Of a stretch of DNA of 64,000 nt, positions 119-58,168 are shown piece by piece. This DNA comes from Posidonia oceanica (taxonomy: Eukaryota; Streptophyta; Magnoliopsida; Alismatales; Posidoniaceae): contig JAZBRS010000029.1 of NCBI GenBank assembly GCA_037176725.1, positions 126,947,001 to 127,011,000 of the forward strand. The letters are read 5' to 3'. Position 1 is the first letter of the stretch. The number at the start of each line of letters is the position of its first letter. Made by a program: the position numbers and the translations under genes. The notes below the pieces were generated by a model that saw only the letters and a list, made by a program, of their open reading frames with translations, had not been told where the DNA came from and made no database searches.

Positions 119-958
119 TCGGCCGGATAGTTTACGGTCCTATCAACCGGGAGTGATAGTTTACAGTCCTATCAACTGGGAGCGATAGTTTACAGTCCTA
201 TCAACTGGAAGCGATAGTTTACAGTCCTATCAACCGGAGGCAGTTGTGAGTGATAGTTACTGAATATCAGCCGTATAACATGGTTGTGCGGGATAGTTTA
301 CAGTCCTATCAACTGGAACGATAGTTTACAGACCTATCAACTGGAGCGATAGTTTACAGTCCTATCAACTGGAAGCGATAGTTTACAGTCCTATCAACTG
401 GAATGCACAAACCATGAGGGATAGTTACTGGGTATCAGCCGTATAACGCAAATGCCAGAGAATGATAGTTTACGGTCCTATCAACCGGAGCGATAGTTTA
501 CAGTCCTATCAACTGGAACGATAGTTTACAGTCCTATCAACTGGAAAGGGCATTTGTGAGGGATAGTTACTGGATATCAGCCGTATAACATGATTGCGAG
601 TGATAGTTTACAGTCCTATCAACTGGAACGATAGTTTACAGTCCTATCAATTGGAACGATAGTTTACAGTCCTATCAACTGGAAAGCGCAATCATGAGGG
701 ATAGTTACTGGGTATCAGCCGTATAATGCAATTGCAGGTGATAGTTTACGGTCCAATCAACCGGAACGATAGTTTACAGTCCTATCAACTGGAACGATAG
801 TTTACAGTCCTATCAACTGGAACGATAGTTTACAGTCCTATCAACTAGAAGCTGCAATTGCAAGGGACAGTTACTGGATGTCAGCCGTATAACACAACTG
901 TGAGCCAGATCGGGGATCGGCCCAAGATGATAGTTTACGGTCCTATCAACCGGAAAGA
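119..958 (-). repeat. Hierarchical hairpin array of A
   Basis: Nineteen units of the form GATAG-TTTACRGTC-CTATC-AACYGG are grouped in sets of three or four. The sets are separated by five units of a second form, GATA-GTTACTGG(A/G)-TATC-AGCCG. Four of the groups are enclosed by distinct complementary arms at 279-289/405-416, 448-456/549-557, 589-598/687-696 and 728-736/853-861. Inner loop letters (CAGT or CGGT) match the bases after the stem (ACTG or ACCG) in 15 of 19 units. The window part before 119 is unique sequence shared with C. Confidence 0.88.
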
Positions 959-1033
959 GCAGTGATTGATTGATTGATATTGATAAGAAAAAGGAGAGAT
1001 TGATGATTGATATTGATAAGAAAAAGGAGAGAT

Positions 1034-1990
1034 TGATAAGATATCGAACTTATCGGCCGGCAAAGAGGGGATGAGGGAATGATGAGATACCGGACTTATC
1101 GGCCGGCAAAGGGAAAGAGATGATAAGATATCGGACTTATCGGCCGGCAAAGAGGGGATGAGGGAATGATGAGATACCGGACCTATCGGCCGGCAAAGGG
1201 AAAGAGATGATAAGATATCGGACTTATCGGCCGGCAAAGAGGGGATGAGGGAATGATGAGATACCGGACCTATTGGCCGGCAAAGGGAAAGAGATGATAA
1301 GATATCGGACTTATCGACCGGCAAAGAGGGGATGAGGGAATGATGAGATACCGAACCTATCGGCCGACAAAGGGAAAGAGATGATAAGATATCGGACTTA
1401 TCGGCCGGCGAAGAGGGGATGAGGGAATGATGAGATACCGGACCTATCGGCCGGTAAAGGGAAAGAGATGATAAGATATCGGACTTATTGGCCGGCAAAG
1501 AGGGGATGAGGGAATGATGAGATACCGGACCTATCAGCCGGCAAAGGGAAAGAGATGATAAGATATCGGACTTATCGGCCGGCAAAGAGGGGATGAGGGA
1601 ATGATGAGATACCGGACCTATCGGCCGGCAAAGGGAAAGAGATGATAAGATATCGGACTTATCGACAGGCAAAGAGGGGATGAGGGAATGATGAGATACC
1701 GGACCTATCGACCGGCAAAGGGAAAGAGATGATAAGATATCGGACTTATCGGCCGGCAAAGAGGGGATGAGGGAATGATGAGATACCGGACCTATCGACC
1801 GGCAAAGGGAAAGAGATGATAAGATATCGGACTTATCGGCCGGCAAAGGGAAAGAGATGATAAGATATCGGACTTATCGGCCGGCAAAGGGAAAGAGATG
1901 ATAAGATATCGGACTTATCGGCCGACAAAGAGGGGATGAGGGAATGATGAGATACCGGACCTATCGGCCGGCAAAGGGAGGGTTTCGCGA
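1034..1990 (-). repeat. 87 bp minisatellite of dyad subunits in A
   Basis: About ten copies of an 87 bp unit are made of two subunits. One is GATAAG-8 bases-CTTATC followed by GGCCGGCAAAG. The other is GATGAGATACCGGACCTATC followed by CGGCCGGCAAAG. The period is a multiple of three, so one minus frame stays open for 303 codons with a 29-residue repeat, probably by chance. Confidence 0.92.
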
Positions 1991-2587: not shown

Positions 2588-3790
2588 CTAGCCGGTTCGG
2601 GCCTTCTTTGACTGCCTGGAGTCGGGGAATAGGGGGCCGCCTGGCAGGATTTCATTGATGGGCCAGAGCTCTTGGACCTTAGTCACATACTCAGGGGCGC
2701 ATCCTACACCTCTCACAGCTGCGATGTCTGTTGATCGCACCCCATGCTGCATCTGATTGGCCAGCTTCTTGGTTGGGGCTGTCGTGCTGAGAGGGTATGC
2801 CTGAAGAAGCTCGGGCCCTGTGCTGTCAACAAAGGCACCCTGTTGGAAGCCAAACTGGCACATAACCCTGATGGGATGGTATTCCACACCCGTCGTGAAC
2901 CCTGGTAGTACAATCAGCCGCGTGTCACGTGCGCTGAAGAAGACAGTGAATGGCTCGGCGACGGAGGGGATGATACGCTAGGTTACTGCGTCGTCAGTCA
3001 GTGCTGATAGCCTTTCGTACTCTTCTTTGACGCTTTTGACTGTCTTGGCACGGCTGCTGTTGCAGTAGGCTTCAAAGGCATGCTCCTGGGGGCGCAGAAG
3101 GTTCATCTCTAAGTGTGCGGCTAGCCAGACTTGTATAAGTGCCCCGCAGCCATGGAAGTGGCGGCAGCAATGTGAGATGCGGTCCAGCCCGCGGTATGCT
3201 TCTGCTAGAACAACTGGTGCCAGGTCTATGTGCCGGGTCACCACAGCAAGTGCTATTTCTGCAACCTCCATGGCCACTGTCAGTCGGCCATGAGTAAAGA
3301 TCAGCTCGCCCAGGAAGCGGATGACAAACCCTTGGAGCCACAGCTCATCTCCGAGTTCGACGCGCTTCTTCATGACATCATCAAAGTGCGCTAGGCGAAG
3401 CATAGGTTCAGGTCCGCTGGTGCAAATCAGTCTTTGTTGGCAGCTTCGAGTAGGGAGCCCAGTTAGTTGGCTCAGGACCTCGAGGTATCCATCACGCCTC
3501 ATGAAGATAGGCGGCCTCATGATCTTGGAGAAGCCGCAGATCCGATGCACTTCTTCCAGTGTGGGTGTTAGCTCAGTTCTGCCAAAGCGAAAGACGTGGT
3601 GTGCCGGTTTCCAGAACCTTGCGGCGGCACACAGAAGATGGCGGCTTATTTCCACATCAGCAGCCTTCAGTAGCTTGGTTGGAATACCCCACAGGCGCAG
3701 CTTTTCGCAGTCTTCTTGGGTAAGCTCGCCGATCCATTCTCGCAGGGTCTCCGAGCAGCGTGCTGGGGTCAACAGAGTAGGGAAGCCCAT
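2588..3790 (-). pseudogene. Accessory ORF of element A, plant mobile domain/DUF7745-like, one stop
   Basis: Counting from the ATG at 3790, the frame is 400 codons plus stop, exactly the length of the intact copy in B. An open frame extends 89 codons further upstream, but B does not share it. Motifs typical of the aminotransferase-like plant mobile domain/DUF7745 superfamily are visible: FRFGRTELTPTLEEVHRICGF, APVVLAEAYRGLDRI and HGCGALIQVWLAAHLE. One TAG at 2978 replaces a TGG of B. The domain is known from plant transposons; its molecular role is unknown. It lies in the sense direction downstream of pol, where it would need splicing, re-initiation or its own promoter. Confidence 0.75.
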
Positions 3791-5223
3791 TGCGCAGATT
3801 GCAGGGGTATAGGCAGATAGCCGCAGAGCTTGAAGGTACCTGTTATCATCATTGTAAACAGTCAGATCACACAGGCATATAATCTCTGACAGAAAGCAGA
3901 ATCTGAGGCTGATAATGTAGTTCAACATGTGTCCAGCAGTTAATATCAGAATATAGCAGTTAAGCATAGATAAGTAGAGAGAATCTACAGCAGTCTTGTG
4001 GGCACAGGGGCAAGGGCTGGCAGGAGGTCTGGTCCAGCGTAGCTTGAGCAGCGTCAACGCGTTCTAGGCAAGAAGTACTGTCTCAGAGTCGAAGCGAGTT
4101 GCAGAGCGGAACGATTGATAAGAAAGAAAGGATAATTGAGGATGCATGTATGCATGATGCAGGTTGGTATGCTTATGAAATGATTAGTATGCTTGGGTGC
4201 CCTCAGCATACGGAGTGCTTTGGTGCCTGCTGCAAAGGAAGGGAGTGGTCCCCGACTCACTGGGCCCTACTTAGACTCTTGGCTTGCTGGTGGCACTCCA
4301 GAACGGGTGTTGGCACTTGTACAGGTGGTGGTGTGGACAGGCTACTTGCTGGACTCTCAGGACCTACACCTATTCTTTCTGCTCTCTTTTTTTGATTTCT
4401 CCCTCATAGGTATGCAGTCTTTCTCTGCCCCTAGCTAGGAGAGGGTAAGTGTTTGCTTTTGGAGGGAAGTGGTAGACCCTTTTTAAGCTTAACACCCTTG
4501 GGTCTCTTGTAAGGTACGGGGGATGATGGTGCCTGCATTTTTGGGCTGAATCTTGCCCTTTTTCTTCCCCTTTTTTTTTGCTTTGCTTGCTTTTTCTCCC
4601 CTTTTTTGTTTTTGTTCTATCTCTTTTTTTTGCTTGTTTGATTCCTTTTTTCTCTTTTTTTTTTCAGGCTTTTGCTATCCCCATTTTGGTGGCAAAAGAA
4701 GGGTGTTTGAGTTGTTATGGATCTGGGCTTTGGGTCTGCTGTGTGATGGGTAGAAGGAGCAGGGTTAGACTGCACACCCCTATCTCTAGGACCGGCTTCT
4801 GTCTTCGTCTTCTGTTCCTTGGACGTGCCCAAGCCTAGATGTCTACTCTCACTTTTTCCAGACTCACATCCTAACATTTTTTCTCCCTCAGAGGTGTATG
4901 TCCTTACGAGTTTAGGTAGTTCGCCTATCCTGATTGGTAGTGGCTCCCTCACTAGCTAAGACATCTAAGTAGTACCGGGTGAGGTAGGGCGGACTCTTTC
5001 CAGAGCAGGCAAGCACTTCCGGTTCTCATCACTGGGCCGAAGATGCAATGCATGATTTGAGGGGATGACGATGATGATTTGAAGAGAGTTGATGCAAGAA
5101 TAGGATAGAAGAAGTATAAGCGTAAGTTCCAGAACAAAAGGTGAGGATCAAGATGAGAATGCAAGAAGTGAGAATGCAAGTGTGTAGGTGGGAGAAGGGC
5201 ATCTGCAACGGGGCCGCCCTCGG
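3791..5223 (-). other. Spacer between pol and accessory ORF in element A
   Basis: No coding domain is seen. Two points stand out. A long pyrimidine tract on the plus strand (about 4555-4667) is purine-rich on the element strand and recurs in B (42115-42220) and C (61225-61335). An AG/GTACCT junction lies at 3833-3840 on the minus strand, 45 bp upstream of the ATG of the accessory ORF, and is also present in B and C. Confidence 0.5.
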
Positions 5224-7567: not shown

Positions 7568-9601
7568 CTATGCAATAAAGCGGCTGATATACTGTAAACG
7601 CCCAAGCAGACTTCTGACCTCCTCTTCAGTTCTAGGGGGTGGCATGTCCACGATGGCTTTTGCTTTCATCGGGTCCACCTCAATCCCCCTTTGGCTAACA
7701 ATGTAGCTGAGCAGCTTGCCAGAAGACACCCTGAATACACACTTCTTGGGATTCAGGCGCAACTTGTATTTCCGTAGACGATCAAAGAGCTTTTTTAGAC
7801 AGGCAAGATGGTCTTCAGGCTCTCTGGTTTTAGCAATCATGTCGTCTACGTAGACCTCTACTTCTTGGTGCATGAGGTCGTGGAACAGCGCAGTCATGGC
7901 CCTCTGATAGGTCGCACCAGCATTCTTCAGACCGAACGGCATGACTTGGTAGCAGAAGAATCCCCAAGGGGTGATGAATGAAGTCTTTTCCATGTCCTCT
8001 TCTGCCATTTTAACTTGGTTATATCCAGAGAAGCCGTCCATGAAGGAGAGCATCTTGTGGCCCGCTGTATTGTCGACTAGGACGTCAATGTGAGGCAAGG
8101 GGAAGTCTTCCTTGGGACTCGCCTTGTTCAGGTCCCTGTAGTCGATGCAGATCCGGATTCGGCCATCTTTCTTGGGCACAGGTACAATGTTCGCCAGCCA
8201 CTCAGGATAAAGAACGACCTTCAGAAAGTTGACTCTGAGCTGCTTCATTATCTCTTCTTTGATCATGAGCAGCCACTGCGGTCGCCATCTTCTCAGTTTC
8301 TGCTTCACTGGCTTGGCATCTGGGTTTAAGGGCAGATTGTGCACCACTATTTCTATGTCAAGGCCGACCATATCCTCATAACTCCAGGTGAAGATATCCG
8401 CATATTCTTTCAAAAATGCGATGAACTCTGTTCGAGCCTGGGAGGACAGCTGAGCACTGATACGAACTTCTCTGACTTCCTCAGTTGTGCCGATGTTGAC
8501 AACCTCTGTTTCTTCTTCAACATGGAGGTTGGGGCCTTCTGGGTCGTCGTCATAGGGCCGGAACTCGGGCAATGGTTCGTCAATCTCATCCATGCTCGTA
8601 TCGTCCTCCTCTCCATAAGCAATAAGTTCCGAGAGGATCTCTTTCTCAAAAGAAGGACTTGTGATGTCGAAAGAGTGTATATGTTCTACTACTTGACCCT
8701 GGTGACGCTTCAGGATGGTCACGCTCACTCGGGTATTCTTGTAGCCTCGGCGCGCGACCTCCGTCCCAGCAACTCCTTCTACTGTTTGCTCTGGCCTGAC
8801 TGATTCCGCTAAGTGCTCCGCTGATACTGCTGAGGGCCTTGTTGATTCTGCTGCTGATATCGCTGATGGCCCTGCTACTGAGGCTGCTAACAACTCTACT
8901 ACTGATTCTACTTTCTGCTCTGTTACCGTAGCTGCTTGGATTGCTAGTGCTTCCTCCTCTGAGTCTTCTAGTGTGCTTGTGGAGGGTATGCTGGACCGGC
9001 GGCTGATCTGGGCACTGCCGCTCGCTATGCTGCTCCGGTGAGGCATGTGTTGCACAAACCACCTAGACCCGCCTTCTGGTTGGAGAGTGATGAGTTCATC
9101 TGGTCTAGGGGAGTCCGGTGCTGCTGAGTCTTCTTCCAGGACCATGATAGAGGCATGGTCTTCTTGCAGAGGAGGGTCCGTAACCACGGCTTTCCCTTTC
9201 CTTTCTGCGGCTCGATGCTCTGCCAGGTCTTCTGCTATTGACTTGATTTCTTCTTGATAAAGTAGCTCTAAGTCAGACATCCATGAATCGACCTGGGCTT
9301 CTATCGCCACTCCTTCCTCCTCGTCTGAGGGTGAGTCGACGTAGTAGGCACCGGGGGCCTGCGGCACTGGCCCGGCTGCAAGACGGATCGCTGCCCTCGG
9401 AATTTGCATGATCTGGCTCATGGGCGCGCCTGATAATGGCAGCTTTGGCGTGGGAGATCCAAACAGACTGGTCAGCGGGGCCACAGATGGGTATGCTGCC
9501 AGAGTCACTGTTGCAGGTAGAGGGCAGGCAGAGACGCTCTTCTGAGGGCTCAAGGGCCGGGAGACTATGGTGCTTAGTTGGTCCTTTGCACCTGGTTGTG
9601 A
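7568..9601 (-). pseudogene. Reverse transcriptase of element A
   Basis: An acidic, low-complexity linker of about 400 codons precedes the RT domain, which runs from about 8225 down to 7570. Visible motifs are PVPKKDGRIRICIDYRDLNK, FMDGFSGYNQ, PWGFFCYQVMPFGLKNAGAT and the catalytic YVDD at 7841-7852. The thumb-side texts LNPKKCVF and RGIEVDP follow. The domain itself has no frameshift. A TAG at 7568 ends the open stretch where B has CAA. This is Ty3/gypsy RT. Tat-clade assignment rests on the second RNase H downstream and the missing chromodomain. Confidence 0.92.
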
Positions 9602-11974: not shown

Positions 11975-14182
11975 CTAGGAGAAGCAATTGTTCGTCGAAT
12001 GCCCGGTACTTCGATGGAAATTGCAGAAGAGGTTCGCCCTAAACCAATGCGGCAAGGGATTTGGGGGCAGACGAACCTCCGGGAACTTCAGGAGCGATGC
12101 AACCTTCGGCAGGATGACCGTGAGTGGTTCCACCAGTGGGGCGAATTTCCGCTTCTCAGTGGGTGGCCTTCTTTGCCTCTGGTATGAGCCTTGTTGAACC
12201 GGTGCAGCGGGGTAGACCAGTCTAGCGGTGGTTGTGATTTGTGGTGTGGGTGGATTCCTAGGTGCAGGAGCGTACACCATCTGAGATGGGGCAGGCCGGG
12301 ATGGCAAGCGAACAGGCACAGCAGGGGAGTCGACGAATGCAACAGCGGTTTTCGGCGAGTCTTTCCTCTTCGGGCGGTTGTTGCTGCTGCCGCTGTTGTG
12401 GTTGGAGGCGCTGCTGTTGGCACTGTTACTGCCGATCACGGCCTGCTTAGTGAACGCAGAGAGAGCCGGGAAGTTGCCACTCCGTAAAGAACTCTCCACG
12501 CGCGCTCCAGCTCTGATGAGTGCTGCAAAAGTAGTGACTGGTTGGATGCTAAGCAGAGCTCCAAGAGATGGCTGCGCCCCTTTGATGATGATCTCAATAG
12601 ACTCCTCGTCAGAGGGTCTATCTCGAACCTGAGAGGCAAGGGCGCGCCAGCGGCCGACGTACTCCCCGAACCGCTCACCAGAATTCTGCTTGATTGCGAT
12701 CAAGTCCGCCCGCTTTGGGACTAGATCGAGGTTGAAGGAGTATTGTTCCAGGAATGCCTGGCTGAGGTCGTTCCAAGTCTTGATGGCTAACATATCAAGC
12801 GATGTGAACCACTTGAGTGCCGGCCCGGTCAAACTCTTCTGGAACAGGCAGATCAGCAACCTCTCGTCAGCCTGAAGCTGAGCGAGATCACCGCAATACG
12901 CCTTTAGGTGTGCCACGGGGCAGCCCCTACCATTGTATTTCTCGAAGTCTGGGATTTTGAACTTCAGAGGGAGTACTGCCTCTGGAAAGCAGCAGAGGTC
13001 CCGAAATTGGTAGGTCTAGTGCTCAGTACCCTGCACTAGTCGTAGTGCCTTCTCCAAGACGTCCATCCGGTTGTTGATGGGGTCTGGAGTTGCTATTATA
13101 GGGGAGGGATCAGCAGGGGTAGTGAGCACATACGCCGAATGGGTGGCACCTAAGTGCTCCTCCGGATCTACCATAGCGTTGCCTGGTGGAGCAACGGGAT
13201 GGCCGGCGTATCCGTGTTGGGGAACTGTGTATGCAGTAGTGTATGCAGGATGCTGGGCTAGATGCAAAGGAGAAGAGTAAATGCCATGCTGTGCTGTGAT
13301 AGGGGTAGGATGACGGAGCACCAGTTGTTGTACAGGCGGGGTGCCAGACAGCGAGCCAGTGAGGTACTGGGCTCCAGCCGGTCCGAAGAACTGACCACCA
13401 GGGGGAAGAGGAGCATGCTGTGCTAGGTGTTGTGCAGCAGGAGGCGGTAAACGGGCCCCCATCGTCGGAACCGTGAGCAGTTGAGACGATGGTCGAGGCG
13501 GAGGTGTGGAGGTAGATGCATGAGATGCAGGAACTGGCCTCAAAGGAACCTCAGGAACGACAGGAGCACAGGAAGGACGAACCAATAAAGCCATGCCCTA
13601 CAGTCTCTGGGCAAGCTCCATCAGGTGCTGGTACTGCGCCTCAGGTGTCTCGCCAGTGGGGATGCTGAAGTGCAGTGCCGGCGAAGGTTGAGAGGCAAAT
13701 GGCACGGACACAGACTGTCCGGGAGGAACAGGTTCTACAGTAAAAGTCGCAGCGGCGGTAGGAGGGATGTCAAAGGCGACGTATCCCTGGGACGGAGGGG
13801 GCAGTGGCGTCTCCGAAGCGCGAGTAACGGTCATCAAGATAGACTCGACGACCGGATCTGGAGGGAGAGATGCTTGCCACTATCCCGGGACATACTGAGA
13901 TCCTAGAGGCGTCAGGGGAGGAAACCCTGGCGTCGGAAGGGGAACAAAAGGGGCAGAAGGAGCGACCGTAGGGGCCGGAATGGAAACACCCTCCGTGACA
14001 GGAGTAAAGAGGGGCTCACTGACGTACTGGGTCATTGCTGACCTAAAGCGCGTGAGAATGGGGCTGCGACGGGTATGCAAACGGTGATTCCTAATAGGAG
14101 CTATCGTCGCAAAGGCGGATAGCTCAGAAGAGGGAATGGTCACGAATAAGGTCGCAACAGGGATGTCAACGAGGGTCGGTAC
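11975..14182 (-). pseudogene. gag: gag of element A, three internal stops plus one at its end
   Basis: Capsid polyprotein that would package the element's RNA. The N-terminal third is Pro/Ala/Thr-rich. The conserved retrotransposon gag domain runs from about 12985 down to 12440, with EKYNGRGCPVAHLKAYC, ALKWFTSLD, FLEQY and RWRALASQVRDRPSDEES. A C-terminal C-x2-H-x4-H-x4-C zinc knuckle (CNFH..TGHSTNNC) follows near 11985-12025, as is usual in Tat/Ogre gag. TAG stops interrupt the frame at 13880, 13598, 13016 and 11975. All lie in one frame that continues into protease and RT without a shift. No clear ATG was found: the frame opens after a TGA at 14183-14185. This copy cannot make full Gag. Confidence 0.85.
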
Positions 14183-15360: not shown

Positions 15361-15672
15361 CTGTAGTAATCCCAATCAGAATTAGGCTTACTATTGGCGG
15401 CGAGGTCCGAGGAGGAGGGCTCAACTCGAAAACACTTAAAATAGAGGAGAAAAGGTAAGAAAAGAAGAAGATAAGACAAATCAGAGTCGCCACCGTGTCT
15501 ATTATCGGGAGACAAGGAAAACCGGGGGAAATGTGTGAATTAACAGGCAAAACCAAGCAAGAAATGCAAAGCAAAGCAATGCAAAGGAAAACAAATGCAA
15601 ATACATGCAAATGAGATGACTCATGCCTAGGATAAGGGCAATATGGTCATTGCGGGCCAAAAGACTGGGCAA

Positions 15673-15740
15673 GGACTCCTGTTACGCGCGGGGAAGGTGT
15701 TAGGCACCCCCGACACGCCCGAGAATCGGTCTTTCTAGGC
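15673..15740 (-). promoter_or_regulatory. Conserved LTR block near the LTR 3' end
   Basis: About 70 bp are nearly identical in all three long LTRs (also 31711-31780 and 50773-50840), although neighbouring LTR sequence has diverged. The element strand reads TGCCTAACACCTTCCCC in its core, and it contains a GGTG/CACC dyad. I recall similar TGCCTAACACCTTCCC text from other Tat-clade LTRs. Conservation suggests a role in transcript ends or reverse transcription, but the role is inferred. Confidence 0.6.
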
Positions 15741-16029
15741 TTATGCTCGCATACGCAGGGAAATGCAGGTTGGAATGCCTAAATGCCAATGAATGCTCAT
15801 AGGTGTGCTCTAAGTGGCAGAATGCAATGCAAGGAAAGTAAACGTGCAGTCTAAGTGCTCAGCAGCGCTGTCTGTGTTCTGAACCAGGCGAAACCTGGCT
15901 CGTGAGAACTCCAGGCAGTAAGCATCACTGCCCTATATGCAAATGCAAGCGAAAAAGCAAAACAACGGTAAAACCAAGCAATGCAGGCGACATGCAAGAG
16001 AAAACGGCTTAAAGCACGCGAAACAATGC

Positions 16030-16520
16030 AAGACACGAGAGCGGCACGCAAAACGGTGCAAGAAAACAAGACAGGCACGCAAAATGGTGCCAAAAGCGAA
16101 GCGGGCACGCAAAACAATGCCAAAGCGAAGCGGGCACGCAAAACGGTGCCAAAAACAAAGCGGGCACGCAAAACAGTGCCAAAAGCGAAGCGGGCACGCA
16201 AAACGGTGCCAAAAGCGAAGCGGGCACGTAAAACGGTGCCAAAAGCAAAGCGGGCACGCAAAACGGTGCCAAAGACAAAGCGGGCATGCAAAACAGTGCC
16301 AAAAACAAAGCGGGCACGCAAAACGGTGCCAAAGACAAAGCGGGCACGCAAAACGGTGCCAAAAACAAAGCGGGCACGCAAAACGGTGCCAAAAGCGAAG
16401 CGGGCATGCAAAACGGTGACAAAGACAAAGCGGGCATGCAAAATGGTGCCAAAAACAAAGCGGGCACGCAAAACGGTGCCAAAAGCGAAGCGGGCACGCA
16501 AAACGGTGCCAAAAGCAGCG
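16030..16520 (-). repeat. 30 bp tandem array in the LTR of A
   Basis: About 16 units with the plus-strand theme GGTGCCAAAAACAAAGCGGG followed by CACGCAAAAC vary mainly between AAAGC, AAGAC and AAAAC in the middle. The period is a multiple of three, so several frames stay open for 130-270 codons. Those frames are not credible genes. Confidence 0.9.
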
Positions 16521-17219
16521 GAATAAAATCTCGGCAAAACCATGCAGATGCAAATGCAAGGAGAGAGAACAAGAGAAGCGAAAGGGGAGGCAAACAGTGT
16601 GTGTGTGAGAACAGGCACTGTTTAAGGGCCACGCAGAGTAGGTGTGAAGACCTACACTGGGGAGAAAAAGCAAGTGGAGGGATTACCACCGCTTTGTGAC
16701 TGTTTCCCACTAAACCGCCCCACGATGTGTCTCGCACGCTGCCCAAAGCTCGCAGCGCGATCGGATCGTGGGAAAGGTGGAAGAAAGTCGCAATAAGTGG
16801 TGAATCCAAGGGAAACACGACACAAAACACTTGGGAATACGTGAAAGGAGGAACGGAATTGATAGATAAGAAGAGGAAGTCCTATACTACATGTTCGAGG
16901 AAACAAAAAGCAAAAACGATGCAAGCAATGCAAATGGTATGCAGATGAATGCTGTGTAGGGGTTCAGAAGGACGTACCTGGGAAATCTGAAACCTGATCT
17001 GAGATCTGCTTGGTCCATGCTGAAGAGCGCTTCGCCGAGGTCGTCCGGGTAGCTTATTTGAGAAGATCCAACGGCCGGATTGGAAGATATCACAGCTTCA
17101 AGGCAGAGGGGCCAGAACAGGGGAGAAGAATGGATCTAAGTGTACAGGGGGTCTAAGAGGTGTGCAAGACAGGTCCTCTCTCGTGAATGGGAGCTAATGA
17201 TACTTAAGTGTGTGCAAAG

Positions 17220-18130
17220 GATGCAAAAAACTAGAATGCATGAGTGCAATGCATGCAGAATGCAAGAAAAGGCTTAAGGGTGATTTTTCAGAAAATTGGG
17301 AATTTAAATGCAATTTTTGAAAGGATGGGGGTCTAAATGCAAAGGTTTTGAAAAGTCTGGGGCTTTCATGCAAAGATTTTGGAAAAGGGAGGGTCTGCAT
17401 GCAATTTTACAAAAGGCAGGGTTTAAAATGCAATTTTCCAAGATGAATATGCATCAGGGCAAGTGTTGAAAACATGTGGCAGGTTAAGATGCAATTTTAA
17501 AATCATTAGGGTCCAAAATGCAATTTTTCTAGCAAAACAGGGGTCTAGTGGGTCTGGGAATGCAGATGGGGGACCTATATGCAATTTTCCAAACATGTGG
17601 AGGCTAAAATGCAATTTTATAAGCAAAATATGCATTTAAATGATTTTTATAAGCATGTAGAGGACCTATGTGCAATTTTCAAATCATGCAGGGTCAAAAA
17701 ATGCAATTTTATAAGGAAAATATGCATTTAAAAGACAGACAGAGGACTGGTATGCAATTTTCAAATTATGCAGGGTCAAAAATGCAATTTTTGAAGCAAA
17801 ATATGCATTTAAATGACTACTGTGCATTGAGGATGGACCTATATGCAAAAATCAAAAAACAGAGGGGAAATAATGCAATGCAGTAAGTAAAAATTGAAAG
17901 ATAAAAGCTAAGTTAACAGGACAGAGGATTAAATGGCAATTACAGAAAACAATAAGGACCTAAAATGCAATTTTATATGGCAAACTTAGAGGATTAAATC
18001 AGATTAATTAACTGCAGGACTAAAATGCAATAATCAAAAGCTGGAGGGCCAAAATCAAATTTATTACTGAAGGAAAGCACAGTAAAAGGACTGACATGCA
18101 AATAAAGAGAACTACATATTTTTCATGCAA
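17220..18130. repeat. Degenerate ATGCAATTTT-rich stretch in the LTR of A
   Basis: The text ATGCAATTTT and variants recurs every 30-70 bp, mixed with AGGACCTA or AGGGTCTAAA. The same style is found at 52250-53300 in C and, more diverged, at 32930-34330 in B. No coding signal is visible. Confidence 0.6.
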
Positions 18131-18249
18131 TTTTGTATGGTTTTAATTCAGAAATAAACAGATTTAATCAAATAAAGGACTTGAACGCAAATAAACAAGA
18201 ACTGAGACCAAAAAAGCAATATTTGGTAAAATAACTAAGGTAGCAGAAA

Positions 18250-21010
18250 ATAAGAGCACAGTAATATTGCAGATCGTCGACCACTGTAGCAGTTGCTACC
18301 AGTGGCCGACAGGGGGAGCAGAGGGGTGCTGGCGAGGCGTAGTCCGGCGGGCGAGCTTCACCAGAGCTCGACGAAGACCGGAGCAGCATCGGCGAGCAGC
18401 GACGCTGCCTGGAGCAGGCCAGAGGAGATGCCGGAGGTCTGCAGACCTGCTCGGAGGCAGGCCGGTCGAGCAGCGTAGCGTCGACGAGGTCTGATGGCAG
18501 GGACATACTCCTGGGGTCCGTGCGGAGCTGGGGCACCGGTTGGAGCGACGTTCTGCAGACCGGAGCGGTGGGACGAGCAGCGAAGCTCGCCGGAGAAGAC
18601 AGAGCTGACCCGACGTTGACCCGGCGCAGGAGGGAAGGAAATCCCAGGCTGAGGGGCGGAAAAGCAAGAGAAGAGGGAGTCTAACCTAGGGATGAAGAGA
18701 GTTACCTGATTCGCTGGCTGGAGCGTCCTCCCGACATGGGTGTCTTTTGCAGAGGCCGGCAAGCTTGGTCCGGCTGTTGCGGGCGTCGTCCGCTGCTCGC
18801 GAGGATCGGAGTTGCTTCCGCGGAGCCCTCCGGTGCTTCTCAGACGCCTGGACGTGAGCTCTGAAGACCGGAGACAGGATCGAGATTTTTTGGGTGTACA
18901 GAGGCAGTCGGAGACGGGGGGAGGTGTTCGCTGCTCCTCAGGCCGAATGGGAGCAGCCGGTGAACTTCTGGAGGTTGGGTGAAGGGTTTTGGGTGATTAA
19001 ATTGGGTCGTGGGGGCCTGTAGGTGGAGTTTGCAGGTGGGGTGATCTTCTGGCAGAGGAAGGTCACAGGTGTTTGTTGTGGTTTGCTTGGTCTGTGAGGG
19101 GGGAGAAGGCTAGAGCTTTGGGGGGTTAGAAAGCTGGTGGTCAGGTGAGTTAGGGTGTGGAATTTGGGAAGGTTTCAAGGGCTGTGGAGTCGGTAATTTT
19201 GAGAACGAAGGTGTTGGGTTGCTGAGTTGGAAATGGGGTAGTCGGGGATGATTTCAGGGTGACTTCGGGTGTGGAATGAAAGGGTGGAGATGCTGGAAGT
19301 TTGGTCGAGATTGAGGGAGGAATTGGGAGAGTTTTGCTGGGTGGAACAGGTGCTGGATTGGATGGAATGGAAGAGGAGGGAAGGGTCTGATTTTTGCAGA
19401 GGAAAGGGAGGGGAATTGCAAGGATTCTGGGTGCTGGACGCTTTCTCTCTCAGGACGACGCGAAGAGGCTGGAAGGAGGAGAAGACCTGGAAGCTTTATG
19501 CAGCTGCGGAGGACAGACGCGCGCTGGGATTCAAATCCCCACCGGCGGGAGCACTGCTGCTGATGGAGAGGCGGTCGGCGTGGAGACGGGCAGTAAATGC
19601 CCTCCCGGAAGTTCCGCTGAGTGCGAGAGGAGGAAGGTGGACTGGTGCTGAGGTGATCGGGAGGGAGAAGCGAAGTTAAATTTTAAAGAAGATCGCGGGA
19701 AGGAGAAGAAGAAGTTGATGAGGAAGAAGAAGAAGAAGGAGGGAAGAGGAGGGTGGAAGGCGTGGGCCGGGCCGCAAGCTGAAAAAAAGAAAAAAGAAAG
19801 AAAAGAAAGAAGGGGGTGGAAGGGGCTGGATTGGGCCCAACAGGAGAAAAGGAAGAAAAGAAAGAAAGATAGGAAGAAAGAGAGAAATGGATGGGAAAGA
19901 GAGGAGAAATAAATTAGATAAAAATAAAATAAAAATAGGTAAAATTATTAGAGTGATTGTATTTTAAGTTAGGACCGTGATTAAATTTTTTAATGACTGT
20001 TTTCGGTTGGTTAATCAGGTTTAGAGGGATTTTGGGTTTGATTAGGGTTTTAAGGGTTTTCTTTGTTTTTAATTTGTTTTTTATTTTGATTAAATGTTTG
20101 TTAAGTCTTTTAAGTTGTTTTTTAATTATGTTATTCTTGTTAAGTACTTGGGATGTTAATTAGGATTTTTTAAGGTTTGTTTTTAGATTAATTAGAGTGA
20201 GTTTTGGCTTTTGATTTTAGTCTTTTAGGATTTTTCTTAGGTCTTCTTTGATTTGCTTTTTCTTAATTTCGTTTGTTAAATTCTTTTAGCATTTTTTTCT
20301 TAGGCTAGGTTTTCTTGTTAAGTTTTTAATTAGCTGTTCTTAAATTTTGATTATTTGTTTTATTATTTTTTAATTATGTTTTCAATTTTTCTTTTGAGAG
20401 TTGTTAAGTTAGGTTTTTCCTCCTTAATTATTAGCCCTTGCATTTCTTAAGTGTTTTCTTTCTTTTAGGGTTTGTTTTCTTGGTTGTTTTTAATAGAATT
20501 TTACTTTTAGCTGTTTTGATTACATTTTGGTTTTTTTCTTGATTTTACAGCATTTTCTTTTGGTTTGTTTTGCATTTTTTAGCTTGCATTCTTGGTTTTC
20601 CATTTTAGCTAGATTTAGTTGGGTTTAGGTTTTTAATTGTTTGTTCAATGTTTTTAATTATTTTTCTTAAGGTTTTGGTTTGTTTCCCTTTTGTTTTAGA
20701 GTTTTAGAGGTTTTTAAGGATTTTTTAGGGACTTAGCAAGAGAAAGAAAAGGAAAAGGAGAAGGAAGAAGAAAAGGGAAAAAAGGAGGAATAAAAGGGAA
20801 AGAGAGGAGTTGAAAGAAAATAATTTTTTGAAAGTCAAAGAAAATGCTAAAAATAAGATAAAAATAGGAATAAGATTGAGAAGAGATAGAAGCACAAGGG
20901 GGGCCCACAGCCAGGCAAGAAAAAAGGAGAGAAGGGGATGAAAAGAAGGAGGATAATCAGGAGAGAGAGAGGAGAGAGAAAAGAATAATCTTGGAGAGAG
21001 AAAACGATAA
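18250..21010. other. GC-rich block followed by strand-asymmetric tracts in the LTR of A
   Basis: A GC-rich part (18250-19680) is followed by a G/A tract (19690-19920), a T-rich tract with few C (19930-20700) and a further G/A tract (20720-21010). C repeats this at about 53420-56100, and B has a related order at about 34400-37020. In element orientation the T-rich part is A-rich upstream sequence. I see no gene, and the promoter cannot be placed from sequence alone. Confidence 0.5.
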
Positions 21011-21423
21011 TTTGGGTGAATGGAGGGCTTAAAGGTTTTGAAAAGGAGTGAAAATTGGGGAATGTGTTGCCTAGGGTTTCTAGTGTTGGTTCTGCGGATT
21101 TGGTTTAGTTTTGAGAAGGTTTTGGAAGGGTTTTGAGGTGTTGAAAAAGGGTGGTTTTACCTAGGTTTTCTAGGGTTTTTGGGAATGGTTTTGGGTTGAA
21201 AATTTCTAAGTGTTTGGGTAGGTTTGCTAAGTAGGGGTTGAGGGATTTTCCTATGGTTTTTGGGCAGGTTTTGGGCTTGGGAAATGGGTGTAGGCTTAGG
21301 TCAAGTTAGGCTTGTTTTGAAGGGTAAGATGAAAAGGATTGGTGTAGTTTTGACCCAGGTTTAGATCCAGAAGTCACCAAAAGGTCCCAAATGGTCCAAG
21401 CCTGTCAAGATGGGGAGTCAACA

Positions 21424-22419
21424 CCCCTGCTTCATGCCTTATGCGCCTTTTGGAGTTTTTTCTTTAGGGGTTGTGAGGCGACAATCTTAGTAGAGGATGT
21501 TCATGGCCTGCTTGGTGTGACTCAGATTGGAGTGGCCCGGCCAAATATTGACTTCCCATTGCCATACGGAATAGCAGATATGCAAACATTCATAGACCGT
21601 ATCTTCACCCTTCCGCCTACCTTCCCAGTGATTAGAGGTCGCAGGCTCAACTTGGCGCATCTGTACTTCAACTTCCGACGGATTGAGGACTCTGCCTCTC
21701 AGGATCAGCTGCTGGTGTGTCTACATTTACTGATTGGAGGCCTCACTTTATTTGTCACCAAGGATTTCTCCTTGGATGTCTATCACACTGAGTTCTTGAT
21801 AGGCCTTACTGAGCACTTCTGGCATTCTCCTTCAGTTGCCATTCTTGCTACTACATATCTTGGCCTGACCATCGTTTCCACTGGAGGGGATTTTGTAGGC
21901 TCTCATTTCCTACCTTCCAGTTGGCTGTAGGTCCATTTCCCCAAGCTTGGGCCTGTGAAGACAGATTTGATTGATGAAAGGGTTTGCTCTTTGTCCTCTG
22001 CCCCTATTGACATCTCCGTGCCTTCCACATCCCTTTCTCATAAGCACCAGGCGCGAGGTTCTTCAGTTGAGTTGGAGTTGATAGGGCCCACCCACTTTGT
22101 GGTGTACAACTCCTATCGCTGCTTTGAGATGGTAGGGTAGGAGAAAGGGGTGCCACCTCGGCTGAGCTTTATTCCTCGTATTCGAGTTCGGGAGTGCAAT
22201 CCTCCATCTGATGCAGTACTGGTGTACTACATTCGGGCTCTTTGGTCGTCTCTAGACTGCCATGATGATTCAGAGGGGCCATCAGCTGCTCCATCGACTT
22301 GCTGCCTACCACAAGAGGATGCGCACTGGAAGTGGTATTCAAAGCTACTGCCCAAACCCGAGGAGTGGGTTGAAGCGACGGGCATGCTGCACAGGAAAAG
22401 GAAGAAGATGATTAGATAG
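21424..22419 (+). pseudogene. Antisense accessory ORF of element D, plant mobile domain/DUF7745-like
   Basis: This reads opposite to D's pol, as in several Tat-lineage families that carry an antisense ORF between pol and the 3' LTR. Visible texts are ATILVEDVHGLLGV, LNLAHLYFNFRRI, LLIGGLTLFVTKDF and GSHFLPSSWL, which fit the plant mobile domain pattern (VEDV..LLG, GG.LF, L..WL). The 5' part is cut off by element A, whose LTR ends at 21423. Two in-frame TAG codons (21928, 22138) sit where CAG gives a sensible Gln. The natural end is TAG at 22417. Function unknown. Confidence 0.7.
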
Positions 22420-24102
22420 GCAATCATTGGAATCTTTTATTTTTGGGGACCATGTATTTTTTCAAGGGAATAAATATATCTTTCATTTTTCATCCTTGTT
22501 CATGTGTTTTGGACTGTTCTGAGTTTAGAAATACTCCCTGGTGGCCTTGGTATTTGATTAAGGGCCCTTTGTCCAAATTCTGTAGTTCTAGTCACAGTTA
22601 AATTTTAAGACGCTCAATCTAGCACTTATAACGTAAGACGCATGATATCAAGCGTCCAATATTCCTCTGTTGATCGTTATACGCTTCAAATAGTGCGTCC
22701 AACATTGGATGCTGATATTTGCTCATTTAACGCTCTCGAACTGCTCTCCTACACAACCTCAGCAAATTTGTTAATCCATCTAGGAGTATTATTGCCCCTA
22801 GTCCAAAGTGACTTCTGGAAACTCAGAAACATCCTTAACACTGTGAAATCACAACGATTACAAAACACTTGGTAACAACCTATATACAATGCATACTTTA
22901 AGCAAACCTAATGCTATGAATGGGAAAGAAGTTTTAATGCAAATGGAGAAGTTAAGGGAAACTTAGGTTTTGAATAACAAGTATTGGCCTTAGCTTTGTT
23001 GTCTGAAGATGATATGCCAGACGAGGGACTGTCTCTTCTCGAGATCCCAGTCTTAGCTCGTAGGCGAATACCAAGTGACCGTTCTGAATAGGAGGGGTCG
23101 AGTATGACGCGGAGTTGTAAAATGTCCTAGATTTTTGCATCACTAGCCTTACTTGTTATCAGTTTCATGAGGTGACGTTGGTTGGGTAGATTTTACCCTA
23201 CTCACTATTTTTGGATTTTTGATTTTATCATTTTTTTGGATTTTTGACTTTATCATTTTTTTGGATTTTTTATTTTATCATTTTTTGGATTTTTGATTTT
23301 ATCATTTTTTTGGATTTTTGATTTTATCATTTTTTTGGATTTTTTATTTTGTCATTTTTTTTGGATTTTTGATTTTATCATTTTTTGGATTTTTGATTTT
23401 ATGGGAGACAAAGAATCCTTTGGGAAGTTGGGAAACTGGGGACCTCATGGCTGGAAAACCTTGACAGTTTAGTCCTTTGTGCATCTCAGAGTCAGAAAAT
23501 ACCTCGGGCTTGTTTGGCACCTAACTGCCCCTAGACCTAGGCCTCTGCCACTTGCCTCTAATGTGTACAGTGTGGGATGTGGGTGGAAGGAAAGTCCATG
23601 TCCTATCTTAAGATGTTGGCTGAAGATTTGAAGCCTAAACCCCTCCTAGTTCAAGGTTGATTGTTACTGCGCTTAGTATTCCCCAGCTTTTCAGTTTTGA
23701 CTCTTGGACAACTTCTTTGCTGTCGTCTTTTCCATTCTCTTTCTTTTCTTGCACATGGACAGCTTCTTTGCTGCCTTCTTTTCTGACCCATTTGCTTTCT
23801 TTTCTGGGTACTTTGGCAAGTAGTCTCACCCCTTCTGAGTGCTCGGTCAATGGATACTCGTTCCGAGACACTCTTTTATTTGGTACTCTCCCCTCTTTTC
23901 TGCGCTTCGAGGTTTTAGACCTTAGATGCCTACCCGATTTGTACTAGGGTAACGTGTCTGACTTGAAGACTGTGTGTGGACTTGTTATTCATGAACTGGG
24001 AGGGGGCTCCTTATGATTTGCCTCTATCTCAGTGTTGGACCATTTCCTTTCCTTCTCCCACGAAGTGTTTATGGGGTGAGGCTAAGGCATGATTCCTAGG
24101 CT
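22420..24102. other. Non-coding 3' region of element D
   Basis: This lies between the antisense ORF and the integrase end. No gene is seen. It contains a 26 bp T-rich minisatellite (see 23208-23402). The stretch around 22600-22880 has mixed composition without recognisable termini. Confidence 0.5.
23208..23402. repeat. 26 bp T-rich minisatellite in D
   Basis: About seven units with the theme GGATTTTTGATTTTATCA followed by six to eight T, with small length changes in the T run. Confidence 0.9.
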
Positions 24103-30665: not shown

Positions 30666-32000
30666 TACTTTTCTTTTGCTATCATCATACCCGGCAATTG
30701 TCATATCAATGGGGGTTAAGGAAGCCTCATTTATGCCCAAGGCTCGTATTGTATTTAACGAGCAAATGTTCATTGATGCACCAATATCTCTGAGCACTTC
30801 AGAAATTAAGTGATTGTTTATAGAAATGGTTACATTCAATGGTGCTTTTCTCCTTTCTATTGGCACCAACTCGCTATCAGCAAAGGTAATGATAGGCTCT
30901 ACAAAGGCCGCTGTAGCTATAATATGGAGTTCCTCCGCTAGCATATCCGGGGCAACTTGGGCCTTCTCCAGCACTTCTTGCAGAGCTCTCCGGTGTTGAT
31001 TTGAGCTGTTTATGAGGTCATAGATCGAGATCCTGGCTTGCGTCTTCTTCAATTGCTCTAGGATGTCATATTCCACCGACCTGGGTCCTACTTCAAGTCT
31101 GACCGGCTCTGTTTGCTCTACTGGTGGTACAATTCGATTCGACAGCCTCCCTCCTCTGGTGATGGGCGCAGCAGCCTCATTTCCATTGCACGGGTCATTG
31201 GATGCTCCCTTCTTGGATGGCCAGGCGAAGATGGACTCCCTCCATATAGCTCCGCCAAGCTCTAGTGGCTTTGTGGCCCTAGCTTATCGCTCTGTTGGCA
31301 CTCGGAAGGTTGGGGATGACGGAGTGGTAGTGCTTCAAAATACTGAAGTGTTGAGGGCCGGCTGTAGCGATCCCGTGGAGCTTCCGCGATCGTCCATGGA
31401 CGCTGCCGGAGCTCACGTGCACCGATCGGAAAGACCAGGTTCACTATTAGTGGGTGATCCGATGAGGAAACTCGACTCAAAACACCGAAAACAGAGGCAC
31501 AAAGCCAAAGGGAAGAAGAAAAAGAAAGGAAAGACAAGAGAGAGTCGCCACCATGTCTATTAAATCAGGAAACAAGGAAAATCGGGGAAATGCATAAAAA
31601 CATGCAAAACCACACAAGAAGATGCAATTCAATGCAAATGCTATGCAAAGAGGATGTCTCGTGCCAAAGACGAGGGCAAAAGGGTCATTACAGGCCAGAG
31701 AAAGGGTAAGGACTCCTGTTACGCGCGGGGAAGGTGTTAGGCACCCCTGACAAGCCCGAGAAGCAGTCTTTCTACGCTTACGCTCACTTTTGAGGGAAAA
31801 TGCATGCTTTGAATGCCTAAGTGCCATGAATGCCTAATTAGATGCTCAAAAGTGTGTTCTAACTGTTGAAATGCATGCAAGGAATTAAACGTGCAATCTA
31901 AGCGCTCAGCAGCGCTGTCTATGTTCCGAACCAGGCGGACTCTGGTTCGTGAGAACTCCAGGCAGTAAGCATCACAGCCCTAATGCAAATGCAAGCGATT

Positions 32001-32235
32001 AAAACAAAACACCGGTAAAACCACACAATGCAGGGGTGCGACAAGCAAAGGGGAAAGCAAATCTGGACAGAAAACAAGCAATGCAAATGTGAAAGCAAAA
32101 CACCGGGAAAGCCACACAATGTAGGGGTGCGACAAGCAAAGGGGAAAGCAAATCCGGGCAGAAAACAAGCAATGCAAACGTAAAAGCAAAACAGCGGAAA
32201 AGCCACGTAATGCAGGGGTATGACAAGTAAAGGGG
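32001..32235. repeat. About 90 bp tandem repeat in B's LTR
   Basis: Two and a half units with landmarks AAAACACCGG, CACACAATGCAGGGGTGCGA and AAAGGGGAAAGCAAAT. It occupies the place of the 30 bp array of A and C. Confidence 0.85.
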
Positions 32236-32246
32236 AAGAGTAAACA

Positions 32247-32285
32247 ACATGACGGGCGTCAACCGAGCAGTTAGGGCTGCCAGCC
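32247..32285 (-). repeat. Composite hairpin pair inside B's LTR
   Basis: The first dyad TGACGGGCGTCA is followed by ACCG. The second, GCAG...CTGC around TTAGGG, is followed by CAGCCC. This is the same two-part plan as in the 3' regions, here inside the LTR. Confidence 0.6.
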
Positions 32286-35200: not shown

Positions 35201-35639
35201 GTGGACTTGGGTGAATTGTGAGCTGGAAGTTGGCTGTTATGAGCTGTGGGTCTGCTGGTTTGGGTCCGGGTCTGAGGGAGAGGAGAGGTGGTCTGGGTTC
35301 ACTAGGGCTCGGGGTTTAGGTGTTGGTTTGCAGAGAGTTGGGTTTGGGAGAGAATTGGGTGCTGGTTTGGGTGAGCTTGGTCTGCAGAGAGTGGTGCCAG
35401 TTTTGGGGAGGTTTGGGTGCTGGTGAGGTTGGGTTCGGTCTGTGATGGGTTTGGTCTGGTCTGGGTTCATGGGATTGGGGTGAGGAATTGGGTTTTGGTT
35501 GGCAAAGGATGGGTGGATGCAGAGGAGTTGGAGATTGGCAATTGAGGAAGATTGGGCGGGAGAGAGGGAAGAAGGAAAAGGAAATAAGGAAGGGATTGTG
35601 GGCTTGGGCCGGTTGAAGGGAAAAAAGGGGTGGAAAAGA

Positions 35640-35760
35640 GAGAAAAAAGAAAGAAAAAAGAAGAAGAAGAAGAAGAAGAAGAAGGAGAAGAAGAAGAAAG
35701 AAAAAAGAAGAAGAAGAAGAAGAAGAAGAAGAAGAAGGAGAAGAAGAAGAAAGGAAAAAA
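35640..35760. repeat. GAA/AAG microsatellite tract in B's LTR
   Basis: Nearly pure AAG/GAA triplets with short AAAAAAG interruptions, forming a 120 bp purine run on the plus strand. Confidence 0.95.
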
Positions 35761-36513: not shown

Positions 36514-36527
36514 TTAGGGTTTTGGAG

Positions 36528-38962: not shown

Positions 38963-39004
38963 CTGACAGATGAAAGGTTCCAGACCCACTAACCGCGAGA
39001 GGGT

Positions 39005-57070: not shown

Positions 57071-58110
57071 GATAGTTTACAGTCCTATCAACCGGAAGCG
57101 ATAGTTTACGGACCTATCAACCGGAAGCGATAGTTTACAGACCTATCAACCGGAGGGTGCAGTTATGAGTGATAGTTACTGGATATCAGCCGTAAAACAT
57201 GATTGTGCAGGATAGTTTACGGTCCTATCAATCGGAAGCGATAGTTTACGGGCCTATCAACCGAGAGCGATAGTTTACGGGCCTATCAACCGGGAGCGAT
57301 AGTTTACGGTCCTATCAACCGGAAGCACAATCCATGAGTGATAGTTACTGGTTATTAGCGGTTTAATGCAAATGCCAGAGAATGATAGTTTACGGTCCTA
57401 TCAACCGGAAGCGATAGTTTACAGGCCTATCAACCGGAAGCGATAGTTTACGGGCCTATCAACCGAGAGCGATAGTTTACGGTCCTATCAACCGGAAGTA
57501 ATAGTTTACGGTCCTATGAATCGGAAAGGGCATTTGCAAGTGATAGTTACTGGATATCAGCCGTATAACATGATTGGCACAGCGATAATTTACGGTCCTA
57601 TCAACCGGAAGCGATAGTTTACGGGCCTATCAACCGGAAGCGATAGTCTACGGGCCTATCAACCAGGAGCGATAGTTTACGGTCCTATCAACCAGAAAGC
57701 ACAATCATGAGGGATAGTTACTGGTTATCAGTCGTATAATGCAATTGCAGGTGATAGTTTACGGTCCTATCAACCGAAAGCGATAGTTTACGAGCCTATC
57801 AACCGGGAGCGATAGGTTACTGGCCTATCAACCGGGAGCGATAGTTTATCGTCCTATCAACCGGAAAGAGCAATTGCAAGGGATAGTTCTTGGATATCAG
57901 CCGTATAACGTAATTGCAAGTGATAGTTTTGGATATCAGCCAAGGATGAGTTTTGGATCATCAGCCAGAGAATGATAGTTTATGGTCCTATCAACCGGAA
58001 GGTGCAATTACGAGGGACAGTTACTGGATGTCAGCCGTATAACACAACTGCGGGATAGTTTTAGATATCAGCCCAAGACAATAGTTTACGGTCCTATCAA
58101 CCGGAAAGAG
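57071..58110 (-). repeat. Hierarchical hairpin array of C
   Basis: Same plan as 119-958. Units are GATAG-8 or 9 bases-CTATC followed by AACCGG, mostly with CGG in the loop here, and are grouped and separated by GATA...TATCAGCCG hairpins. Closing arms: 57198-57208/57325-57336, 57368-57376/57529-57537, 57569-57576/57702-57709, 57741-57749/57870-57877 and 57910-57918/58003-58011. The last pair (GTAATTGCA/TGCAATTAC) differs from the fourth (GCAATTGCA) by changes on both arms. Confidence 0.88.
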
Positions 58111-58135
58111 CAGTGATTGATTGATTGATTGATTG

Positions 58136-58168
<33 letters not shown>

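Follow-up and report, generated by a model that had tools for sequence, protein, structure and literature searches.

Branched hairpin groups with their own closing stems in the 3′ untranslated region of Ogre/Tat-type retrotransposons: a probable RNA domain

LTR retrotransposons of the window

The window, by which we mean the whole 64,000-base stretch of DNA that was analysed, comes from a genome of 2.96 Gb in 80 contigs, and all 18 of its open reading frames of at least 200 amino acids lie on the minus strand. A Pfam scan that covered nine open reading frames identified gag, reverse transcriptase and G-patch reading frames in element A, with a plant mobile domain reading frame (PF10536) downstream of the polymerase genes, and RNase H, zinc-binding and integrase domains (RVT_3, H2C2 and rve) in element C. 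The elements carry the Ty3/gypsy set of gag, reverse transcriptase, RNase H and integrase on one strand between LTRs, the domains having been identified in part in element A and in part in element C. A second match to the plant mobile domain (PF10536) lies at 39836-41038, and an RVT_3 domain precedes the integrase domains at 43360-44520 of element C.

The 3′ LTR of element A (L041:3273-9800) is outside the window, with its end some 200 bases to the left of window base 1, and the two LTRs are 98.0% and 97.8% identical in two blocks. Because the 3′ LTR sits there, positions 1-2977 are the 3′ untranslated region of element A, and domain A (Table 1) lies about 320 to 1160 bases from the LTR. The 5′ LTR is followed by TGGCGACTCCGCTGGGGA, a candidate primer binding site of the tRNA-Arg type, the type expected in Ogre. 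About 590 bases of the 5′ LTR (19614-20199) are absent from the 3′ LTR (L041:3273-9800). In element B, the carrier of the domain copy at 57-58 kb, the 3′ LTR spans approximately 50.4-56.5 kb; the 5′ LTR falls beyond the right edge of the window, and the two are 90-95% identical. The LTRs of element C match at 90-94%, and element B appears to be nested in element C (50400-56500, 31362-37336, L042-L044).

Passages of PMC6317226 describe an extra RNase H between RNase H and integrase in Ogre and Retand, plant mobile domain reading frames in 57% of Ogre elements, and tandem repeats as frequent in the noncoding parts of large elements. The host of domain A is a minus-strand Ogre/Tat-type Ty3/gypsy retrotransposon, to which the label 'Ogre' is suited. 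The plant mobile domain reading frame, used as a protein query, led to 19 proteins on short ENA contigs; pattern scans of viral contigs and genome contigs and an integrase-based scan returned zero external relatives.

Table 1. Features of the branched domains and of their host elements (positions in the window)
Feature	Position	Strand	Basis or remark
Branched hairpin domain A in 3′ untranslated region	119..958	- (sense strand)	four arm-closed groups
Outer closing stem of A, 3′ arm in sense RNA, GCAGTTGTG on +	240..248	-	8 Watson-Crick pairs with 893-900; probability 0.85 in sense fold
Outer closing stem of A, partner arm, CACAACTGT on +	893..901	-	complementary to 240-248
Spacer hairpin ahead of group 1	252..278	-	GATA..TATC type
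Further copies of spacer hairpin	420-446, 562-588, 700-726, 866-892	-	between groups
Group 1 left arm, CATGGTTGTGC	279..289	-	pairs with 405-416
Group 1 right arm, GCACAAACCATG	405..416	-	single bulge, also found in other copies
Group 2 left arm, CGCAAATGCC	447..456	-	pairs with 549-558
Group 2 right arm, GGCATTTGTG	549..558	-	one G.T on +
Group 3 left arm, CATGATTGCG	589..598	-	perfect pairing with 687-696
Group 3 right arm, CGCAATCATG	687..696	-	perfect pairing with 589-598
Group 4 left arm, TGCAATTGCA	727..736	-	palindromic, perfect with 853-862
Group 4 right arm, TGCAATTGCA	853..862	-	palindromic, perfect with 727-736
Four unit hairpins of group 1	292..400	-	sense C[G/A]GU-U-GAUAG-G-AC[C/U]G-UAAA-CUAUC
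Further unit hairpins of domain A	126-236, 464-543, 602-681, 740-847, 929-952	-	as group 1 units
87-bp tandem array	1028..1979	-	sense unit CGG-CC-GAUAAG-U-CCG-AUAU-CUUAUC; pseudoknot geometry on minus only
Last ORF of element A, plant mobile domain (PF10536)	2978..4057	-	Pfam
Reverse transcriptase ORF (RVT_1) of element A	7568..9553	-	Pfam
gag ORF of element A	11975..12916	-	Pfam
5′ LTR of element A	15362..22467	-	matches 3′ LTR in two blocks
Domain B, homologous copy in second element, five groups	57071..58103	-	arm pairing
Arm starts of domain B, five groups	57198/57325, 57367/57529, 57569/57702, 57740/57870, 57909/58003	-	five groups
Outer stem of domain B	57159-57167 / 58043-58051	-	one A.C on +, G.U in sense

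Groups of unit hairpins are bracketed by their own arms

An earlier sequence-only reading of this DNA had described four sets of hairpins in domain A, each bracketed by complementary arms of its own sequence, and all four pairs are present at the positions it gave. Its description of the brackets as matched pairs holds for their presence, less so for their perfection: the 11-bp stem of group 1 has a single bulged base in its right arm, and group 2 includes a G.T. Two features are additions to that account, namely a fifth group in domain B and an outer stem that encloses all groups. The outer stem of domain A (CAGTTGTG with CACAACTG) comprises 8 Watson-Crick pairs and one G.T on the plus strand; both of its arms, variants allowed, are present in 79 of the 90 loci described below, and no paired changes were seen in it among the copies examined. 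The second hairpin type that had been placed between the brackets, GATA..TATC, was located five times, with GACA/TGTC replacing GATA/TATC at 866-892. Because its arms are palindromic, the group 4 pair alone is weak proof of bracketing.

Chance does not explain the pairing of the nine groups of domains A and B, whose longest exact complementary runs were reached in 0 to 40 of 5000 letter shuffles. Linker pairs of like geometry elsewhere in the window have a run of at least 8 in 10 of 7786 cases, versus 8 of the 9 groups. The outer stem run was reached by 1 of 5000 shuffles in A and by 76 of 5000 in B, and chance might explain the outer stem of B taken alone.

Two other candidate features overlap this region. 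A tRNA-Trp call at 774-856 falls inside the unit array and was taken as spurious, and a 303-aa open reading frame at 935-1846 was rejected as a gene, since in our view it follows from an 87-bp period that is divisible by three.

Copies of the domain across the genome

We assembled 90 related loci from this one genome, two of which are the window's own copies. The A-type set contains 40 loci (39 at 92-98% in addition to the window's A), the B-type set contains 30 (the window's B and 29 others at 91-94%), and 20 more were picked for their differing arms from the list of matches to the spacer pattern (matches listed: contig C1). A search of the genome with a pattern that joins spacer and left arm gives 84,014 exact matches, and 0 for the reversed pattern, and the matches listed on contig C1 show many other arms.

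Among the A-type loci, the order of groups is the same wherever spacers were recognised. Unit number per group varies between copies; the arms are constant. The fifth group, present in domain B and absent from the window's domain A, could be delimited in 30 of the 40 A-type loci, and its left arm was seen in two more, L020 and L040. Arm cells of the 40 loci are Watson-Crick in 1874 of 1930 cases, with 28 G.T on the plus strand, 25 G.U in sense and 3 others; these exceptions look like single decay changes without strand bias. One A-type locus (L022) has its first units swapped for another unit type (GATAGTTTAGGTTATCAGCCT), as if unit types were exchangeable.

The diverse loci carry other matched pairs, including CATAATTGCA/TGCAATTATG, CGCAAACCC/GGGTTTGCG, CGCAATGCC/GGCATTGCG and CATGATTGCAC/GTGCAATCATG, as well as CATCATTACGCG/CGCGCAATGATG, which has one G.U in sense, and the bulged CATGGTTGTGG/CCACAAACCATG. 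A contrast between subfamilies is provided by CGCAATGCC/GGCATTGCG and CGCAAATGCC/GGCATTTGCG, where one base is lost on both sides, and another by CATCATT/AATGATG and CATGATT/AATCATG. In the LTR-proximal 3′ untranslated region beside the domain, a separate stem seems to covary, reading GACTTTGTC/GACAAAGTC in B (57008-57032) and GGCTCCGTC/GACGGAGTC in L084.

Arms are group specific and change in pairs

By duplex energies, the arms of domain A in their own assignment beat all 23 other assignments on both strands. For domain B, 1 of 119 other assignments is as good as or better than the own one, since the best partner of left arm 1 is right arm 3, the two forming a perfect 11-bp helix that the sense fold of B uses. 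Specificity for the own group is therefore full in A but incomplete in this B copy.

The sequence-only reading had named two checks, that arms be complementary in other genomic copies and that covariation exceed a phylogeny-aware null. The first bears it out. Across 409 groups in 89 of the 90 loci, own arms form 6.66 of 7 Watson-Crick pairs versus 3.94 of 7 for arms from different groups of one copy. In 311 groups every one of the 7 tested pairs is Watson-Crick, and in 98 at least one is not. These groups were cut by the spacer pattern in a fixed 7-column register, which costs the bulged groups of B some pairs, and a few are miscut where a spacer was missed.

Paired changes are seen at two scales. 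For the nine window groups, whose rows were chosen as arms with one bulged base omitted in two rows, 95.6% of cells are paired versus 77.6% after shuffling (0 of 500 shuffles as high), 8 of 10 pairs have changed on both sides, with 24 such cells versus 8.8 in shuffles, and the covariation score is 0.689 versus 0.321 (0 of 500), slid registers giving at most 0.083. Fifty distinct arm pairs from the loci are 85.1% Watson-Crick; re-dealing the right arms lowers this to 61.0% (at most 69.1%, 0 of 1000 re-dealings as high), and sliding the register lowers it to 17-29% (maximum 29.3%). Every one of the 7 columns has double changes. Neither shuffles nor re-dealings remove the kinship among copies.

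Kinship is addressed by a FastTree phylogeny built on the LTR-proximal flanks of 72 of the 90 loci, on which changes were placed by parsimony. Eight same-branch double changes were found, all from one Watson-Crick pair to another, beside 66 one-sided changes. The covariation stands out from the null, which has a mean of 1.48 double changes and reaches 8 in 0 of 2000 replicates; it stands less well against a control in which the partner is slid by +1, which is imperfect in yielding 6 coincidences (the other slides yield 0, 0 and 1). Five of the eight double changes are at the fast-decaying CpG ends of arms, and two internal ones seem to be a single paired deletion, so that the tree test supports paired change without proving it.

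In computed folds the arms close best in the sense RNA

An unconstrained fold of domain A in sense contains all five closing stems at probabilities of 0.85-0.99; on the plus strand, closing stem 1 has a probability of 0.02. The sense fold of domain B contains stems 2, 4 and 5 (0.86-0.98) and lacks stems 1 and 3 (0.16 and 0), and when B is trimmed to the domain, the outer stem is part of the minimum free energy structure. The sense folds of A and B are lower in energy than 60 of 60 dinucleotide shuffles, and the plus-strand folds are matched by 8 of 60 and 19 of 60. We relied on these ranks, as z-scores shift with the shuffles drawn (A sense, -4.83 with 20 and -2.34 with 60; B sense, -1.88 and -2.76 in two runs).

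The strand difference extends to other copies. Strand folding was set up for 31 loci (6 of 40 A-type, 5 of 30 B-type and all 20 others, 4 of which had fewer than three groups), and among 131 groups from 27 loci the own-arm pairing probability averages 0.817 in sense versus 0.536 on the plus strand. It exceeds 0.5 in 112 groups versus 73 and is higher in sense in 25 of 27 loci. In five loci whose arms were kept and whose remaining sequence was dinucleotide-shuffled, the probability falls from 0.94 to 0.52 in sense (0 of 25 shuffles as high) and from 0.67 to 0.40 on plus (4 of 25). Because shuffling the context lowers arm probability, the units appear to be arranged so as to permit arm closure, an effect clearest in the sense RNA.

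Other folding measures are less discriminating. Re-dealing right linkers within a domain did not raise its minimum free energy (9 of 23 arrangements of A sense and 14 of 40 of B sense were at least as good), and total free energy was dropped as a criterion for cognate arms. Neither unit stems nor arms have a strand bias in their wobble pairs, although post-insertion decay would lead to such arm counts in any case. On both strands, the arrays adjoining the domain fold more stably than their shuffles (z of -2 to -7, with one stretch at -1.2); among controls, coding stretches give z of -1.8 to +1.6, and a leader stretch and one LTR stretch out of two give -2.5 to -3.1. No Rfam 15 family reaches its gathering score in the 64,000 bases.

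Units have the geometry of small pseudoknots

The sense unit CGGU-U-GAUAG-G-ACCG-UAAA-CUAUC reads as stem 1, one base, stem 2, one base, stem 1, four bases and stem 2. An H-type pseudoknot needs such loop lengths, which are reversed when the unit is read on the plus strand. The order of parts in several of the 3′ untranslated arrays fits, on the sense strand, a predicted H-type pseudoknot with a short loop 1 and a longer loop 3. Scanning for this geometry gave 17 matches on minus and 0 on plus at 961-2000, 13 and 4 at 58111-59000, 25 and 12 at 37860-39500, 18 and 15 at 100-960, and 14 and 10 at 57040-58110, where shuffle means on minus for these five enriched regions are 2.1 to 8.0 and tandem copies do not count as independent matches. 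The region 2001-2950 shows no clear excess (6 minus and 9 plus; shuffles 5.4 and 6.2). Five coding, leader and LTR stretches have counts at or below shuffle means, give or take one, with the exceptions of the polymerase of C on minus (18 versus 15.8) and the leader on plus (18 versus 8.5). Spacers and long hairpins do not fit the H-type geometry.

Within the units, stem 1 covaries at one pair per unit type. In T-type units the outer stem 1 pair (T/A, A/T, G/C, C/G) is matched in 12 of 20 distinct units versus a mean of 4.9 (1 of 2000 shuffles), and in U-type units pair 2 (G/C, A/T) is matched in 142 of 209 versus 110 (0 of 1000). The other three U-type pairs are not above shuffles, the fourth being unpaired in about half of distinct units, and stem 1 covariation in the window units alone is not above shuffles either (53 of 500 as high). 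An early test that started from stem 2 hairpins, and that missed units in which stem 2 could be one base longer, gave a weak signal with G.U allowed (29 of 57 distinct versus 22.9; 6 of 500) and 10 versus 8.8 with Watson-Crick pairs only (181 of 500). Stem 2 shows paired changes in one subfamily (GATAG/CTATC, GACAG/CTGTC, GGTAG/CTACC) and is otherwise nearly invariant.

A tentative reading, which we put forward as possible rather than probable, is that in the sense RNA these 3′ untranslated regions form arrays of miniature H-type pseudoknots, grouped into closed branches, with repeats variable in number and constant in fold, and that they form a counterpart of the pseudoknot domains of plant viruses. 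Candidate forms are the unit CGGU-U-GAUAG-G-ACCG-UAAA-CUAUC, the unit of the 87-bp array (Table 1) and N′GG-CU-GAUA-U-CCN-AAAC-UAUC, in which N and N′ are complementary.

Three further structures were observed in the same untranslated regions. A possible pseudoknot, UCGU-CU-GGCAAA-C-ACGA-CAAU-UUUGUC (CAGU in B), occupies the same place in A (2135-2161) and B (58782-58808). A long hairpin is common to the three elements (about 2069-2095, 58716-58742 and 39315-39335), and differs between A and B by a paired change, UGUC/GACA to UAUC/GAUA. The 3′ untranslated region of element C (37860-39480) alternates GATAAG..CTTATC with GATAGG..CCTATC, a paired change from A-T to G-C, most copies being followed by AAGACC; no group-specific brackets were seen there by eye or by the pseudoknot-geometry scan.

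A probable branched RNA domain and its alternatives

We consider it likely that the genomic RNA carries here a conserved, branched domain, which probably serves as a multivalent protein-docking platform. In the computed model, each group of short hairpin units forms a multibranch loop in the sense RNA, closed by its own stem of 8-11 bp; the loops are connected via spacer hairpins, and an outer stem of 8-9 bp encloses them all. The arms differ by complementary pairs between groups and between subfamilies, and the predicted folds of the intervening units allow distant arms to meet. Selection on the RNA of transposing copies may have kept the pairing while unit number drifted. A role as docking platform for many copies of one protein would suit the domain because it is repetitive, branched, near the 3′ LTR and kept across the fetched subfamilies, which were themselves found through the domain. 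The protein could be Gag, if the domain serves packaging, or a host factor, if it serves translation or export.

The sequence-only reading had offered either a chain of multibranch loops in the element transcript or cruciform DNA. The former is supported, as strand-specific folding and pseudoknot-like loop geometry favour a predicted sense-strand RNA over a cruciform. A DNA-level feature, whether cruciforms or palindromic sites for a host DNA-binding protein (GATAAG/CTTATC being similar to sites of the GATA or I-box type), seems to us quite improbable. It would sit well with the near invariance of the unit stems, with arrays that fold better than shuffles on both strands and with wobble pairs that lack strand bias. 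However, arm sequence differs between groups, so that no common site is kept, and neither the strand difference in folding nor the 17 to 0 imbalance of pseudoknot-geometry matches at 961-2000 is expected for DNA. Least probable of all is that ancestry alone accounts for the pairing, an ancestral block with complementary arms having been duplicated and similar arms still matching by descent. Most groups do share an arm core (ATTG/CAAT), and direct copies of the palindromic group 4 arms would be complementary without constraint, but descent would not yield different matched pairs, and the poor match between arms of different groups in one copy (3.94 of 7) and change on both sides in 8 of 10 columns speak against it.

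Matched pairs could also be a mutational by-product that needs no selection: if an arm hairpin forms in nascent cDNA, a template switch by reverse transcriptase would copy the mutation of one arm into the other. We think such copy-correction unlikely, though not negligible. Outer four columns of the arms often change as a block (CATG, TGCA, CGTA, CGCA), like one copying event, the nine window groups are without any one-sided G.U pair on the sense strand, and abnormal strand transfer is one published guess, given in a passage of PMC7004042, for the origin of 3′ untranslated repeats. Correction would, however, erase bulges, and the single bulge of group 1 is kept in A copies and in several other subfamilies. 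Arm copying also predicts no arrangement of units that favours arm pairing, in particular on the sense strand.

Relation to known systems and significance

We know of no described Ogre feature of this kind from the literature searched, in agreement with the sequence-only reading. As judged by the titles and abstract openings of the matches listed, work on pseudoknots, stem-loops, hairpins, compensatory mutations or covariation in Ogre or retrotransposons contains no such domain; the founding paper, Macas et al. 2009, may mention hairpins. The tandem 3′ repeats of Tat/Ogre elements are now treated as recombination products and seeds of satellite DNA. If a folded RNA domain is kept there by paired changes, it would have a job in the life cycle of very numerous elements, and some plant satellites may, if this is true, be derived from modules of RNA structure. 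What has passed for junk repeats here has the look of a built RNA structure.

The closest known system is formed by the hypervariable 3′ untranslated tandem repeats of Tat/Ogre elements (Macas et al. 2009, cited in PMC7004042; PMC6317226), which, in the passages of those sources that concern them, share with the present domain their site, the kind of element and units that vary in sequence and length between families. Unlike the domain proposed here, those repeats are described there as probable products of recombination or strand transfer and as a source of satellites (PMC7004042, PMC6317226), and by word count 'hairpin' and 'secondary structure' have 0 occurrences in the main text of PMC7004042.

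RNA viruses and other LTR elements provide two further points of comparison. The upstream pseudoknot domain of TMV comprises three pseudoknots, binds eEF1A, is needed for replication and acts in translation, as passages of PMC4683447 and PMC8518580 describe it. It too is a run of small pseudoknots in a 3′ untranslated region in plants and offers a model for the array's possible role, whereas here 14-18 units lie under closing stems in an LTR retrotransposon, the pseudoknots are partly supported and the protein partner is hypothetical. The RNA transport elements RTE and MTE of LTR elements, the latter with pseudoknot and kissing loop motifs according to a passage of PMC12786077, are likewise cis-acting structured RNAs on a full-length transcript; they differ from the present domain, which would string multibranch loops into a repetitive chain, belongs to a plant element and has a hypothetical role in export.
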